Part shown: piece after piece, positions 9,148 to 18,021 of the stretch
Position numbering within the stretch: position 1 is the stretch's first letter
Layout: every line of letters starts with the position of its first letter
DNA from: Candidatus Pacearchaeota archaeon
Lineage (GTDB): Archaea > Nanobdellota > Nanobdellia > Pacearchaeales > GW2011-AR1
Length of the DNA stretch: 64,000 bases
Assembly: GCA_018221285.1 (NCBI GenBank)
Contig: JAAOYJ010000003.1
Coordinates: 1-64,000, forward strand
Reading direction: 5' to 3'
Made by a program: the position numbers and the translations under genes
The notes under the pieces: model-generated
Seen by the model: the letters and a program-made list of their open reading frames with translations, nothing else
Database searches by the model: none
What the model was told of the DNA's origin: nothing

Positions 9148-9702
9148 TTATCCCTCAACAACCTCTGCCTTCCCCCCATCAATCAAAATCTTTGCAATCT
9201 CCTTAGGGATATTCGCAATTTGCCCTTTATCAAAACCTCCCATCTTATTCCCATCCAAATCTACAAACTCTTCGACAGGATTATTAAAAACAACCAACTC
9301 ATTCTTTGATTCCTCCTCTTTCTTTCCATTCAAAGTCTCATTAAGACTCTTATCAGAAACATCTATCGACTTCATCAATTCCTCAAACAACGACTTCTCA
9401 AACGCAAACATATTATCAAAATCTTGTTTAGAAATCCCTGTCTCAGCAGCAATCAAAATCAGATTCAAAAGCTTCTTCCTCCTTATCCTCATTAACTCCC
9501 TAAACAAAATCCCTGCATTCTCAAGCTGTTTCTTTGTCTTCACAACAACATCTGAAAAATCATCGTCCTCCTTCGACGCTATCTCCTTCTTCTCCTTAAG
9601 ATACTTCGCAACCTTAACAACAAAATTCTTAGCAATCGGCTGCAACTGCTCAGAATACCTCTCCTTCCTAGCAGCTTCGTATATGTCTTTGTAAGTTATC
9701 AT
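9148..9702 (-). CDS. GINS complex subunit (archaeal Gins51-like)
   Basis: MITYKDIYEAARKERYSEQLQPIAKNFVVKVAKYL...; C-terminal FVDLDGNKMGGFDKGQIANIPKEIAKILIDGGKAEVV. The 9759 start in the ORF track reads into an inserted element. Confidence 0.7.
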   Translation of the reverse strand: MITYKDIYEAARKERYSEQLQPIAKNFVVKVAKYLKEKKEIASKEDDDFSDVVVKTKKQLENAGILFRELMRIRRKKLLNLILIAAETGISKQDFDNMFAFEKSLFEELMKSIDVSDKSLNETLNGKKEEESKNELVVFNNPVEEFVDLDGNKMGGFDKGQIANIPKEIAKILIDGGKAEVVEG

Positions 9703-9839
9703 CTTATCCCTCCCGAAGCTGCGCCGTGGTATCCATCGGAGGCAATGAAAAGATGCCACCGTTCAGTGTTTAGAGGAAGTTCAAAAGAAACCAACGGGTT
9801 TCTTTTAGCAGCTTCGTATATGTCTTTGTAAGTTATCAT
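9669..9839. repeat. 34-bp perfect direct repeat (9669..9702 and 9806..9839) flanking a 103-bp GC-rich insert
   Basis: tagcagcttcgtatatgtctttgtaagttatcat is present exactly twice; it contains the first 11 codons of the GINS gene. Confidence 0.97.
9699..9839 (-). CDS. 46-codon upstream ORF created by the insertion/duplication
   Basis: MITYKDIYEAAKRNPLVSFELPLNTERWHLFIASDGYHGAASGGIR*; start overlaps the exonuclease stop (ATGA) and stop overlaps the GINS start (ATGA). Confidence 0.5.
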   Translation of the reverse strand: MITYKDIYEAAKRNPLVSFELPLNTERWHLFIASDGYHGAASGGIR

Positions 9840-10444
9840 TTTTTCAAATAATTAGGAATTTCAAATTTACTAAATTCTGGAAAAAGATTTTTTCCATGAA
9901 CCAATCTTGAAAAACATTCTGCAGTTAACTTTGCATCCTCAAGAGCATTGTGATGTCCTCTTTCATCTTTTAACCCACAGAATTGAAGCGTATTTCTAAG
10001 CCCCATATCATTATTCCCCCCTTTTAGAAGAAATTTTTTATTTAACCCAAAAAATTTTATTTGTGCAATTGTATGCAAATCAAATGCCCTATGATGATTT
10101 GGTGGGGAAAAAGGGTCTTTCTTAAAATACTTCATAGTCTTAACCTTAATAAATGCCTGATCAAATTGGGGATTATGACAAAGCAAATCTCTATTCTGTA
10201 TTGAATCACACCAATTTAAAAAATTCCCGATTAGTTCTTTTTGGGATTGCTTATTTTTATCTCTCAATTCTTCTTCAGTCTTACCAATAATCAGTAATGC
10301 ACGCTCGTTCACAGTATCTCCCTCATCAATTCTTACCTCTTCTAAAAAATAATTTTCCGGGTTTTCAATATCAATCGCTCCTATCTGCCAAATTCCATTC
10401 TCAACATAATCTCCTCCACTCGTTTCAATATCTAATACTATCAT
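9836..10444 (-). CDS. DnaQ-like 3'-5' exonuclease
   Basis: MIVLDIETSGGDYVENGIWQIGAI (Exo I DxE), CHNPQFDQAF, HHNALEDAKLTAE. Confidence 0.85.
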   Translation of the reverse strand: MIVLDIETSGGDYVENGIWQIGAIDIENPENYFLEEVRIDEGDTVNERALLIIGKTEEELRDKNKQSQKELIGNFLNWCDSIQNRDLLCHNPQFDQAFIKVKTMKYFKKDPFSPPNHHRAFDLHTIAQIKFFGLNKKFLLKGGNNDMGLRNTLQFCGLKDERGHHNALEDAKLTAECFSRLVHGKNLFPEFSKFEIPNYLKK

Positions 10445-10502
10445 ACAAATAACAAACATCATCGATTTTTAATGATTGCTATGCTACAAAATGTATAAAG
10501 AA

Positions 10503-11744
10503 CTACCTCGCAAACCCAACCTTTTTCAATAATTCATTTCCATTCATTCCTCCCAAAGTCCCCTTTCTAGCTTCCTTCTCATTGAATTCCTTCTCCTTAG
10601 GAATTGAATCATTATAAAATAAAACTGGAACAGGGTCTGCCGAATGAAATTTCAAATTACATGGGGTTGAATGATCTGCTGTCACAACTACTTTAATCTT
10701 CTTCGACGGCGCAAACTTCCTCAAGAACTTAAAAAAAGTCTTATCAATATACTCGAGCATCAGCTTCTTCTCAATCGGCTTATTATCATGTCCAGGCAAA
10801 TCTGTCTCCTTAATATGCACATAAGCATAATCAAATTTCTTACGGTTCTTCTTCAGAATCTTCGCATTAAACCTACATGACTTCTTCAATCCCTTCCACA
10901 AATTCTCATAAGCATCAAGTTTCTTCAATTTAGGATAATCAAATGAAAACACTGTCATCCCACTAACTCTAGAAAAACCAATCTCAAGAGGCATATAGCT
11001 TGGCGAAACCCATTTATTGTACCTCTTCAATTTTGGAGGTTCAATCCCAGCACCCCGAATAAGAATATAATTCGCAGGCATCAACCCTCTTCTCTTCCTT
11101 TCTTCATTGACAGGATGTTTATCAAGAACCCGATAGGCTTTCTCAAGAAATTCATTTACAATGTTAACAGTATATTGTGTATTCTCATCATCATCTAAAG
11201 GTTTGCAAAATTTAATTTTAGTGGCCGCCTTTAATTTACCCTGTGAATAAGTAAGATCATTGCCCAAAAGGTCCTCTGAAAACCCTCCTCTGAAAACCAA
11301 CACTCCTCTATGCTGAATCGTCGGCTCAAAATCAAACTTAACTGGAAGTTTTATTTTATTCAAAGCTTTTCCCAAAATCCCCGCCTCATCCTTTGTCAAT
11401 GTCCTTCCTGCCCTTCGATCAATAATATTTCCTTTCTCCAAAGAATCAACAGTTGCAAAATTAGTTCTAAATGCCAAATCCCCTCTTGTCAACTTCAAAT
11501 CAGTTCCTCTTGCCTCCAACTGGCCACGTGTACTAGAAATCAATTTATTTCCAAAGATAGAAATAATCGCCTCGTCTGATTCAGGCACAAAACCAGGTTT
11601 AACAGGATACATATAACCCATTTCTCCTCGGGTAGCAAGAAAATCCAAGTTCGGCATCTCTGCAGCTTCAAGCGGAGTCTTTCCATCAAGAAGCTTATGA
11701 GGGCGGTCTCCCATCCCATCAATTATCACCAATATTCCTTTCAT
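10503..11744 (-). CDS. apgM: 2,3-bisphosphoglycerate-independent phosphoglycerate mutase, archaeal type
   Basis: MKGILVIIDGMGDRPHKLLDGKTPLEAAEMPNLDFLATRGEMGYMYPVKPGFVPESDEAIISIFG; VTADHSTPCNLKFHSADPVPV. Confidence 0.93.
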   Translation of the reverse strand: MKGILVIIDGMGDRPHKLLDGKTPLEAAEMPNLDFLATRGEMGYMYPVKPGFVPESDEAIISIFGNKLISSTRGQLEARGTDLKLTRGDLAFRTNFATVDSLEKGNIIDRRAGRTLTKDEAGILGKALNKIKLPVKFDFEPTIQHRGVLVFRGGFSEDLLGNDLTYSQGKLKAATKIKFCKPLDDDENTQYTVNIVNEFLEKAYRVLDKHPVNEERKRRGLMPANYILIRGAGIEPPKLKRYNKWVSPSYMPLEIGFSRVSGMTVFSFDYPKLKKLDAYENLWKGLKKSCRFNAKILKKNRKKFDYAYVHIKETDLPGHDNKPIEKKLMLEYIDKTFFKFLRKFAPSKKIKVVVTADHSTPCNLKFHSADPVPVLFYNDSIPKEKEFNEKEARKGTLGGMNGNELLKKVGFAR

Positions 11745-11883
11745 TCAAAATAACCTCCATGCCTTTTTTGGATGAATGAAAATCTCTGATTTACTTTCAT
11801 GAAAAAACAAAACACCTGTTCTTTAAATAAATTTGGATGATAGAATAAGAAACTATTATAAATCTCTCCCAATTAACTTAATC

Positions 11884-13023
11884 ATGTTTGGAAGATTAAA
11901 GGATAAACTAAAGAGTTGGACAAAAAAGGTTTCTGAGAAGATTGTAGAGAAAGCTCCGGCAGAGCCAGTTGAAACCGGAATTAAAGAAAAACCTATAATA
12001 GTGGCAAAACCCAAGCGAGATCGTGAGGCTAAATTAACAACCGCACCGAAAGGGCGGGAGGGAGGGGATATCCGAACGACCTCGCGAGAAAAAGACGAGC
12101 CAATCCCAAAAGAAGAATCCCTCGAACCTGGAAAAGAAGGATTCTTCAAGAAAATTACCTCAAAAATACAAAAAGTCAAAATCTCAGATAAAGAATTTGA
12201 AGTTTACTCTGAAGAACTTGAAATGCTTCTCCTCGAGAACAATGTTGCACTTGAAGTTGCTGAAAAGATGATTAAGGAATTAAAAGAGAAAATCGTCGGT
12301 AAAGAATTACTAAAGAAAGAGGTTGAAGATGAAATCAAGGATTCGTTCAAGGACATTATTAGGAATATCTTGATTGACCCTTTTGACATTGTGGAGAAGA
12401 TTCAAGATAAATCATTAGACCAGTCAAAAGAACCTTATGTAATATTATTCTGTGGAATAAATGGAACAGGCAAAACAACAACGGTTGCAAAAATCGCTCA
12501 GCAGCTTAAAGACAAAAACATCTCCTGCGTAATAGCAGCAGCAGATACTTTCAGGGCAGCTTCAATAGAACAGATAAAAAAACACGGTGACAAGTTAGGC
12601 ATCAAGGTAATCGCTAATGAATATGGTTCTGACCCTGCATCCGTGGGATTCGATGCAGTAAAATACGCAAAGAAGAACCTAATCAACTGCGTCCTAATCG
12701 ACACTGCAGGAAGAATGCACACTTCAAAGAATCTTCTAAAAGAAATCGAAAAGATTGCAAGAATCAATAAACCAGATACAAAAATCTTTGTCGGCGAATC
12801 AATCACAGGAAACGACGCAATCGAACAAGTCAAAAACTTCAACTGGGAAATCGGAATCGACGGAATCGTCCTAACAAAAGCAGATATCGATGATAAAGGC
12901 GGCACAGCTTTATCAGTGGGTTATGTCACAAAGAAACCAATACTATATCTTGGGACAGGCCAAGAATACGACGCCATAGAAGTCTTCGACAAGAATAAGT
13001 TTATTGAGAAGTTGGGACTATAA
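11884..13023 (+). CDS. ftsY: Signal recognition particle receptor FtsY
   Basis: GINGTGKTTTVAKIA, DTFRAASIEQI, DTAGRMHTSKNLLKEI, TKADIDDKGGTALSV. MFGRLKDKLKSW start preferred because a TATA-like box (ttataaatc) lies about 25 nt upstream. Confidence 0.92.
   Translation: MFGRLKDKLKSWTKKVSEKIVEKAPAEPVETGIKEKPIIVAKPKRDREAKLTTAPKGREGGDIRTTSREKDEPIPKEESLEPGKEGFFKKITSKIQKVKISDKEFEVYSEELEMLLLENNVALEVAEKMIKELKEKIVGKELLKKEVEDEIKDSFKDIIRNILIDPFDIVEKIQDKSLDQSKEPYVILFCGINGTGKTTTVAKIAQQLKDKNISCVIAAADTFRAASIEQIKKHGDKLGIKVIANEYGSDPASVGFDAVKYAKKNLINCVLIDTAGRMHTSKNLLKEIEKIARINKPDTKIFVGESITGNDAIEQVKNFNWEIGIDGIVLTKADIDDKGGTALSVGYVTKKPILYLGTGQEYDAIEVFDKNKFIEKLGL
12052..12067 (+). other. G-quadruplex motif inside ftsY
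   Basis: GGGCGGGAGGGAGGGG. Confidence 0.7.
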
Positions 13024-13067
13024 GCCCCCACCCAAAACTTAATAATCTCACCTTCTTTCCCTAATTT

Positions 13068-13169
13068 ATGTTAAATAAATTTATGCGATTTCCGCGGAGG
13101 CAATTAGAAATCGCCCTTCAGTGCTTAGAAAAAAGAGCGCGAGAAAACAGGGGTTGTCTCGCATGCTAG
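13068..13169 (+). CDS. 33-codon upstream ORF overlapping the ffh start
   Basis: MLNKFMRFPRRQLEIALQCLEKRARENRGCLAC*; begins where a leaderless archaeal start is expected downstream of aaacttaataat; first codons resemble ffh MLEKL. Confidence 0.4.
   Translation: MLNKFMRFPRRQLEIALQCLEKRARENRGCLAC
13085..13162. repeat. Two-hairpin structured element upstream of ffh
   Basis: GCGATTTC-CGCGGAGGCAATTA-GAAATCGC, linker CCTTCAGTGCTTAGA, then GCGAGAAAACAGGGGTTGTCTCGC. Confidence 0.8.
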
Positions 13170-14539
13170 AAAAACTAGGAGAAGTCCTTAGAAAAGCTAC
13201 AGATAAAGTAGCAAATGCTATCTTTCTTGACAAGAACCTTGTTGACAGCATTATAAGGGATCTACAAAGGGCGCTGATTGAAGCAGATGTTAATGTGACT
13301 TTGGTGAAACAGCTTTCTGACAAGATCAAGAAAGCGGCGCTTGATGAAAGAATCAAAGAGATTGACAAAAAAGAGCACATAATCAAATTGCTACATGACG
13401 AACTTGTTAAGATTCTTGGAGAACATAAACAACTAAAGCCCCAAACAAAGCAGAACAGAATTATGCTCTTGGGGTTATATGGTGCGGGTAAAACCACTAC
13501 TATTGCAAAACTAGGAAACTATTATGCAAAGCGAGGAAAGAAGGTTGCTTTGGTTGGATTAGATGTTCACAGGCCTGCAGCAAAAGAGCAACTTAAACAA
13601 CTTGCAGAGAAAAACAAATTAAACTATTTTATCGACGAGGAAGAAAACGACCCAATTAAAACTTGGAAAAAGTTCAAGCCAAAATTAAAAGAATACAATT
13701 TGATTCTGGTTGACACTGCAGGACGGCACAATTTAGATAAAGAATTAGTCGCAGAAATCTCTGCATTAAATAAGCAGATAAAACCGACCGAATCAATTCT
13801 TGTTATGCCTTCAGATATTGGCCAGGCTGCAAAATCACAAGCAGATGATTTCAAAAAGATGCTCCAGATCACAGGAGTTATAATCACAAGAATGGACTCG
13901 TCTGCAAAAGGTGGCGGAGCATTAACAGCCTGCGCAGAAACAAAAGCACCTGTCTACTTCATTACTAACGGTGAAAAGATAAATGATATTGAAGAATTCA
14001 ACCCTGAAGCTTTCTTAGCACGTCTTCTTGGAATGGGTGACTTGAAATCATTGATAGAAAAAATAAAATCAGTTACAGACGAAAAGAAGCAAGCAAAGAT
14101 TCAGAAGAGCCTTGAAGAAGGCAAGCTAACTCTAACAGATGTTGTTGAACAAGTTAAGTCAATGGGCTCTCTCGGAGGTTTTGATAAAATTAAAGGTATG
14201 ATTCCAGGTTTAGGAAAAGCAAAGATTCCAGAAGGCTTGATGGAAACTCAACAAGGAAAGATTGCAAAATGGGAACACATAATCAAATCAATGACTTCTG
14301 AAGAAAGAGACAATCCAGAAATCCTAAAGGACAAAAAAACAGGAACATCAAGAATCAATAGAATCGCGCAAGGAGCAGGAGTCAACAATTCTGAAATCCG
14401 CTCTCTACTTAAGCAATACGACATGCTCAACGACATGATTAAATCTTCAAGCAGCTTCGACCCTTCCAAAGGAATCAACCAAAAACAAATGATGAAACTC
14501 GCAAAGAAGTTTGGTAAAGGAAAGAAGTTGAGGTTTTAA
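13163..14539 (+). CDS. ffh: Signal recognition particle 54 kDa protein
   Basis: MLEKLGEVLRKATDKVANAIFLDKNLVDSIIRDLQRALIEADVN..., GLYGAGKTTTIAKLG, VDTAGRHNLDKEL, C-terminal M domain. Confidence 0.95.
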   Translation: MLEKLGEVLRKATDKVANAIFLDKNLVDSIIRDLQRALIEADVNVTLVKQLSDKIKKAALDERIKEIDKKEHIIKLLHDELVKILGEHKQLKPQTKQNRIMLLGLYGAGKTTTIAKLGNYYAKRGKKVALVGLDVHRPAAKEQLKQLAEKNKLNYFIDEEENDPIKTWKKFKPKLKEYNLILVDTAGRHNLDKELVAEISALNKQIKPTESILVMPSDIGQAAKSQADDFKKMLQITGVIITRMDSSAKGGGALTACAETKAPVYFITNGEKINDIEEFNPEAFLARLLGMGDLKSLIEKIKSVTDEKKQAKIQKSLEEGKLTLTDVVEQVKSMGSLGGFDKIKGMIPGLGKAKIPEGLMETQQGKIAKWEHIIKSMTSEERDNPEILKDKKTGTSRINRIAQGAGVNNSEIRSLLKQYDMLNDMIKSSSSFDPSKGINQKQMMKLAKKFGKGKKLRF

Positions 14540-17682: not shown

Positions 17683-17810
17683 TAGCCCCACCAGGATTCG
17701 AACCTGGGTCCCAGGCTTTCTTCTTTCTCTCCTGAAAAAGGAGGAAATGAAAAGTGCAAAGCACTTTACTTTTCAAAGGCCTGTATACTTGACCACTGTA
17801 CTATGGGGCT
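17683..17810 (-). tRNA. tRNA-Gln (TTG) with about 55-nt intron after position 37
   Basis: AGCCCCA/TGGGGCT acceptor, T-arm CCAGGTTCGAATCCTGG, anticodon stem CAGGC/GCCTG; exons about 17773..17810 and 17683..17717 (minus strand). Confidence 0.85.
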
Positions 17811-17951: not shown

Positions 17952-18021
17952 CCAAAAACACTCTCTCGTTTGACTGACTGCGTTCGAGGCAAGCGAATGG
18001 AAGTTTTCATCCAAAAACACT
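17952..18021. repeat. GC-rich hairpin island flanked by 11-bp direct repeat
   Basis: CCAAAAACACT at 17952..17962 and 18011..18021; hairpin CGTTCG-AGGCAAG-CGAATG at 17981..17999. Confidence 0.6.

Follow-up and report, generated by a model that had tools for sequence, protein, structure and literature searches.

A family of short pseudoknotted repeats, probably mobile, at gene starts and inside genes of a Pacearchaeota family

We describe a family of dispersed, multicopy elements in the 77–85 nt length class, represented by two inserts beside the GINS and ffh genes of a Candidatus Pacearchaeota archaeon (contig JAAOYJ010000003.1, positions 1 to 64,000 of the forward strand; this 64,000-nt stretch is called the window throughout). 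In each copy, hairpin 1 (hp1) is followed by a linker and hairpin 2 (hp2), and the four bases directly after hp1 pair with the four-base loop of hp2 to form a pseudoknot. Copies lie just before start codons, in frame within protein genes and in or next to RNA genes, and related genomes differ in which sites they occupy. These are probably non-autonomous mobile elements that work like the Rickettsia palindromic elements (RPEs) and are tolerated through the expression routes of their host. The family is previously uncatalogued, being in neither Rfam nor the literature searched.

A structured repeat family and its fold

The initial annotation had proposed, from a common hp1 loop (CGGAGGCAAT) and linker (TTCAGTGYTTAGA), that the two inserts (copies 1 and 2; Table 1) define one family of structured elements under selection for an RNA or single-stranded DNA (ssDNA) fold, and had suggested a covariance-model search of this genome and its relatives. 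The shared loop and linker were found in both inserts, and a search of the 863-kb genome for their joint pattern gave exactly these two sites, against none in the reversed control. A covariance model (R1), seeded by five copies from a pattern search in the same genus and family, returned many further copies: at E ≤ 1 it matches 103 of the 189 genomes of the host Pacearchaeota family (best match near 1e-22), with 1–25 copies per genome, eight of them in the present genome and more than 100 in relatives. All genomes compared are metagenome-assembled genomes (MAGs), and the named records with copies are Candidatus Pacearchaeota and related MAGs. Within a 335-genome sample of the phylum, R1 matches are confined to the host family; the pattern search added one copy in a genome of the same order. 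The set analyzed below comprises 117 distinct copies, 111 of which are 74–86 nt long.

Complete R1 matches in the window are limited to copies 1 and 2, the next complete match in a full-model scan having E = 0.5. A third, weaker hairpin that had been put forward as a relative (loop AGGCAAG, 17981–17999) does exist as a hairpin but is no member of the family, as it was unmatched even at E = 10 with filters off. Rfam 15 models gave no match to the element at gathering or relaxed thresholds (above threshold, tRNAs only). Three scans of IMG/VR with the exact pattern found no copy, an absence that rules against a viral origin.

The proposed selection for a fold is supported by covariation in both hairpins as well as by these further copies. 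The stems of copies 1 and 2 had been described as completely different yet paired; both hairpins do pair in both copies, but 4 of the 8 hp1 pairs are identical (3 double-changed, 1 changed on one side), as are 5 of the 10 hp2 pairs (4 double-changed, 1 changed on one side). Folding energies of the single copies are ordinary for their base composition (z of -1.9 and -0.8), so that the evidence for structure is covariation and not stability. When 84 distinct copies were cut to paired segments, 92.5% of cells were paired, both sides had changed in 18 of 22 pairs, and 274 double-change cells were counted against 85 in shuffles, with 0 of 500 shuffles reaching 274. Both hairpins scored above all 500 column shuffles and all slid registers, the signal collapsing upon slides of 1–3 nt (a single-column slide was enough). 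Weighing against this result, the hairpin arms of the 84-copy test were picked by best pairing, and the shuffle controls ignore the relatedness of the copies. A fixed-register repeat on all 77-nt and all 79-nt copies, which involves no pairing choice, agreed in each helix: double changes exceeded the shuffle maximum in the 77-nt class (hp1, 115 vs 90; hp2, 549 vs 212; pseudoknot, 104 vs 102) and in the 79-nt class (hp1, 338 vs 198; hp2, 384 vs 202; pseudoknot, 397 vs 189). In this repeat, the percentage paired in the 77-nt class was only marginal for hp1 and the pseudoknot, because those stems vary little.

The pseudoknot is significant on its own (covariation score 0.465 vs 0.209). Its strands covary as CGTT/AACG, CCTT/AAGG, TGTT/AGCA, CTAT/ATAG and others, and a permutation test gave a mean of 5.86 vs 3.90 (maximum of 2000 permutations, 4.45), with the excess in the expected register only. 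Mismatches read on the plus strand are more often G-U than A-C, by 67 to 26 in the pseudoknot and 35 to 25 in the stems, which identifies the plus strand as the folded one; this bias is compatible with RNA and with ssDNA alike as the folded form. The initial annotation had missed the pseudoknot, together with the likely mobile nature, the in-frame gene insertions and the putatively translated leaders at GINS and ffh described below.

Table 1 Element copies and associated features in the window (hp, hairpin; ORF, open reading frame)
Feature	Position (strand)	Sequence or detail	Basis or match
GINS gene	9148..9702 (-)		Pfam Gins51_C
First 11 codons of functional GINS	9670..9702 (-)	identical to 9807-9839	
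GINS upstream ORF through the element	9699..9839 (-)	MITYKDIYEAAKRNPLVSFELPLNTERWHLFIASDGYHGAASGGIR, then stop; stop TGA overlaps GINS start as ATGA	
Inverted repeat flanking copy 1	9714..9722	CGAAGCTGC, inverted repeat of GCAGCTTCG at 9808-9816	
Element copy 1	9726..9806 (+)	81 nt, antisense to GINS	R1 match, 76 bits, E 5.3e-17
Copy 1 hp1	9726..9759 (+)	GTGGTATC / GATGCCAC, loop CATCGGAGGCAATGAAAA	sequence and fold
Copy 1 pseudoknot strand	9760..9763 (+)	CGTT, complement of hp2 loop AACG 9793-9796	sequence and family-wide covariation
Copy 1 hp2	9783..9806 (+)	AAAAGAAACC (AACG) GGTTTCTTTT	sequence and fold
Displaced duplicate GINS start	9807..9839 (-)	MITYKDIYEAA; now opens small upstream ORF	
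ffh TATA-like box	13038..13045 (+)	CTTAATAA, 22 nt before native ATG	same spacing at empty ffh sites
ffh upstream ORF	13068..13169 (+)	native ATG 13068, 33 codons through copy 2: MLNKFMRFPRRQLEIALQCLEKRARENRGCLAC, then stop, 4 nt past A of ffh ATG	
Element copy 2	13085..13162 (+)	78 nt, sense, abuts ffh start codon	R1 match, 89 bits, E 3.5e-20
Copy 2 hp1	13085..13114 (+)	GCGATTTC / GAAATCGC, loop CGCGGAGGCAATTA	sequence and fold
Copy 2 pseudoknot strand	13115..13118 (+)	CCTT, with hp2 loop AGGG 13149-13152, one G-U	sequence and covariation
Copy 2 hp2	13139..13162 (+)	GCGAGAAAAC (AGGG) GTTGTCTCGC, one A-G mismatch	sequence and fold
ffh (SRP54) gene	13163..14539 (+)		Pfam SRP54, SRP_SPB

Insertion sites and mobility

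Inside protein genes, in-frame copies occupy the PolB exonuclease domain in three genomes (G013, G014 and G008 in our numbering), with G031 also showing an interrupted match and other genomes one unbroken match. Four genomes have in-frame copies beside the active-site PCHRV motif of MGMT; PCMT, LigD 3′-phosphoesterase and an RsmB/F-type methyltransferase are further in-frame hosts, and several of the coding inserts are spanned by Pfam domains. Replication and repair genes make up many of the hosts (GINS, RFC, SMC, PolB, MGMT, EndoIII, LigD-PE). Freedom from stops in all frames was rejected as a property of the element, counts being near expectation in all but two frames, minus frame 0 (59 vs 42) and minus frame 2 (22 vs 46). 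At RNA genes, one copy lies within a tRNA intron, antisense to the tRNA (L015:1501-1577, G013), some copies stop 0–2 nt short of a tRNA 5′ end, and others are flush with the 3′ end of an opposite-strand tRNA or 16S gene. Across these contexts the base to the left is T or C in 107 of 111 copies and the base to the right is A in 94 of 111. Tandem arrays of head-to-tail and 121-bp types also occur; in G008 the tandem unit of 121–122 bp (L044:2207-2652 and L045:717-1257) consists of the element and a 43-bp palindrome, GCACGACAA...TTGTCGTGC.

That the coding inserts adjoin catalytic or core segments (the PCHRV motif of MGMT, the PolB exonuclease) and that one copy sits in a tRNA intron would suit a self-excising RNA, a tiny intron or ribosome-bypass element removed or skipped in the mRNA and leaving host proteins unaffected. 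We regard this as most improbable, as coding copies are stop-free and in frame even when truncated, which is expected if they are translated; MGMT in L057 keeps its frame though hp2 has been lost.

Mobility is suggested by reciprocal occupancy within a single genus, where the SMC site carries a copy in G001 but not in G000 and the RFC site shows the reverse, with a copy in G000 but none in G001. Direct duplications of 15–50 nt flank about 13 of 109 copies, above a swapped-flank control, some of them with an outer inverted repeat of 8–10 bp; as a general feature these outer repeats were rejected, since only about 13 copies, from some seven sites, have them. At the 3′ end of ftsY (L016 in G068, L086 in G109), the last codons are duplicated on either side of the element, much as the first GINS codons are.

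Several observations count against a mobile origin. Target duplications accompany only about one in eight copies, no terminal inverted repeats were seen in the listed copies (GCGATTTC and TTTCTTTT, the two ends, are not inverted copies of each other), and the GINS, ffh, SMC, RFC and SPP (signal-peptide peptidase) starts carry copies in several genera alike, as might be the case if a useful leader had been inherited vertically. Furthermore, neither a Y1 transposase nor an RVT_1 reverse transcriptase was matched in the incomplete assemblies of six copy-bearing genomes (G000, G008, G013, G090, G095 and G129), the element-richest among them, and both enzymes were rejected as obligatory partners on account of these absences.

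The same absences bear on two other kinds of movement. An element of the repetitive extragenic palindromic (REP) or IS200-IS605 type, moved as a single strand by a Y1 (HUH) transposase, would likewise be hairpin-based, strand-asymmetric and non-autonomous, and Y1 genes lie above the cut-off in 13 of 28 genomes examined; it appears quite unlikely given the six genomes with no Y1 match and the 15–50 nt target duplications in a subset of copies, a product not known to us for Y1 enzymes. A retro-element, whose folded RNA would be reverse transcribed and inserted in the manner of a short interspersed nuclear element (SINE)- or intron-like parasite, would fit the plus-strand G-U bias in the pseudoknot, the sense insertion at gene 5′ ends and the variable length of the target duplications. 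We consider it very unlikely, as RVT_1 is unmatched in those six genomes and neither a tail nor an internal promoter was recognized.

In the RPE-like mode of movement that we favor, the plus strand, as RNA or ssDNA, would fold into hp1, linker, hp2 and the loop-to-linker pseudoknot, and this fold would be the recognition mark for a trans-supplied enzyme that copies and inserts the element. Insertion would favor one orientation and one type of junction (T/C to the left, A to the right). Its sites would often lie at a gene edge, immediately ahead of a start codon or flush with the end of a tRNA or 16S gene, or else at tolerated positions inside proteins, and some insertions would duplicate 15–50 nt of the target. 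Copies would survive where the host gene can still be expressed. In PolB and MGMT the copy would be read in frame as about 26 additional residues, and in the tRNA gene it would form part of the intron; in a leaderless gene it would become a new 5′ leader, with the former start codon now opening a small open reading frame (ORF) through the element. Such an ORF would end on the start codon of the gene, where the ribosome may be passed on by termination-reinitiation.

Gene starts and upstream ORFs

In 33 of 111 copies, the ATG of an ORF of 50 codons or more lies 0–3 nt beyond the right end of the element; for the left end the count is 0 of 111. Hosts at these starts include ffh, RFC, SMC, EF-1B, S3Ae, L16/L10e, signal-peptide peptidase and nucleases, and the hp2 subtype GGTTGTTTTC is concentrated there (15/26 vs 14/69). 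At element-free ffh and GINS sites the promoter is uniform, its TATA-like box lying 22 nt ahead of the ATG, a spacing from which the mRNAs of both genes are predicted to be leaderless; at filled sites the promoter retains its own ATG. The 32 element-free sites (e.g., L211, L212, L138) present an A-rich stretch, a CTTTA(A/T)TAA-like box whose end lies ~22 nt before the ATG and a T at -10 (32/32).

At GINS, the native ATG and ~11 codons come first, then the antisense element, and after it a Shine-Dalgarno-like stretch with a further, complete GINS start. This arrangement recurs in 7 of 7 genomes, from six genera: the upstream ORF is open through the element and stops at the TGA of an ATGA on the real start, the distance between the two ATGs is always 2 mod 3 (134–170 nt), and the displaced start differs from the real one at 24 synonymous vs 3 non-synonymous codons. 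The open frame, the spacing and the synonymous excess together point to selection on the upstream ORF as a translated one.

The upstream-ORF layout of the window ffh is repeated at RFC in G000 and in G077. Where the promoter model scores well, the native start lies 2–38 nt upstream of the element; a fixed spacing from the TATA-like box to the left end of the element was rejected, the model scoring well in only ~8 of the 33 gene-start copies. Among these 33, an ORF from an upstream ATG is open in 14 when read in the frame whose stop falls at the gene start, against 5 and 1 in the other frames. At the RFC starts of L250 and L245 (G077, G097), the element is preceded by an additional upstream peptide start, MVAKF(V/I)..P, that is alike in the two; in G131, of the same genus as G097, the RFC start is empty.

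The gene-start copies could also be read as a cis-regulatory leader RNA, riboswitch-like or acting in translation control, that has spread to many operons and is kept for regulation, with other sites as by-products. Consistent with this are the 33 copies in sense at start codons, the occupation of ffh, SMC, RFC, SPP, S3Ae and EF-1B in several genera and the bias of the GGTTGTTTTC subtype. Nevertheless, a consistent sense 5′-untranslated location was not found, the remaining copies being coding, antisense or at tRNA and rRNA flanks; the GINS copy is antisense and yet has the same gene-start design; copies occur inside coding sequence and a tRNA intron; and presence and absence differ within a genus. 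Better structure at gene starts was looked for and rejected, as the fold is kept equally well there and elsewhere, and we therefore attribute the structure to mobility and regard local effects as its consequences. A regulatory leader is thus an unlikely account of the family, though such a role is possible for some copies, notably those of the hp2 subtype enriched at gene starts. A more specific form of the mobile reading, which we offer tentatively and hold to be doubtful, is that the pseudoknotted element, as RNA or ssDNA, is guided to leaderless genes at their transcription start or start codon and gives their mRNAs a leader with a translated upstream ORF that ends at the start codon of the gene; a selfish element would in this way re-engineer the initiation of essential genes (GINS, ffh, RFC, SMC).

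Relation to known elements and significance

RPEs are 105–146 nt long, have one long terminal stem and no known mobilizing enzyme (PMC2229807). Like them, the present element is small, dispersed, non-autonomous and structured, and lies between genes as well as within RNA genes and, in frame, within conserved protein genes (PMC2229807); PolB, MGMT and PCMT provide the in-frame cases and the tRNA intron the RNA case. It differs in being archaeal, in its 77–85 nt length with two separate hairpins and a pseudoknot, and in how strongly it favors the start codons of leaderless genes, where an upstream ORF is present; the single long stem with terminal inverted repeats of ~12 bp was not found. RPEs are the closest known kind, but because this defining stem and the terminal repeats are absent, we do not file the element as a member of the RPEs or of the miniature inverted-repeat transposable elements (MITEs).

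A hairpin recognized on one strand, as proposed here, is also found in REP/RAYT and IS200-IS605 elements, but no Y1 transposase was matched in several of the genomes rich in the present element. Palindromic repeats with coding potential are also present in an archaeon, Methanocaldococcus jannaschii, and by this description resemble the element, although we know of no pseudoknot or leader design in them. These palindromic coding repeats are cited in PMC2229807. The CIR elements of Caulobacter and Brucella, about 110 bp long, are reported to be intergenic only and to carry stops in all six frames; they share the two arms joined by a linker, whereas the present element is open in several frames and enters genes (PMC2229807). 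MITEs such as ERIC, RUP and Correia have terminal inverted repeats and usually TA junctions (PMC2229807, PMC10969869). They are comparable in being non-autonomous, about 100 bp, structured and sometimes fused in frame, but the element has neither terminal inverted repeats nor TA junctions, and a partner autonomous transposon of the MITE type was not found for it.

The family represents a structured, probably mobile element confined, as sampled, to one family of ultra-small (DPANN) archaea plus one copy in the same order, and it enters essential replication, repair and secretion genes with no obvious mobilizing enzyme. GINS offers a natural seven-genome series in which a leaderless essential gene appears to absorb an insertion by means of an open, coupled upstream ORF, and this series makes ideas on archaeal leaderless initiation and reinitiation testable. 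For gene callers the copies are a caution, as they bring coding inserts and false start codons. Elsewhere in the window, a tRNA gene match at 17683-17810 (-) spans 128 nt and so probably contains an intron.

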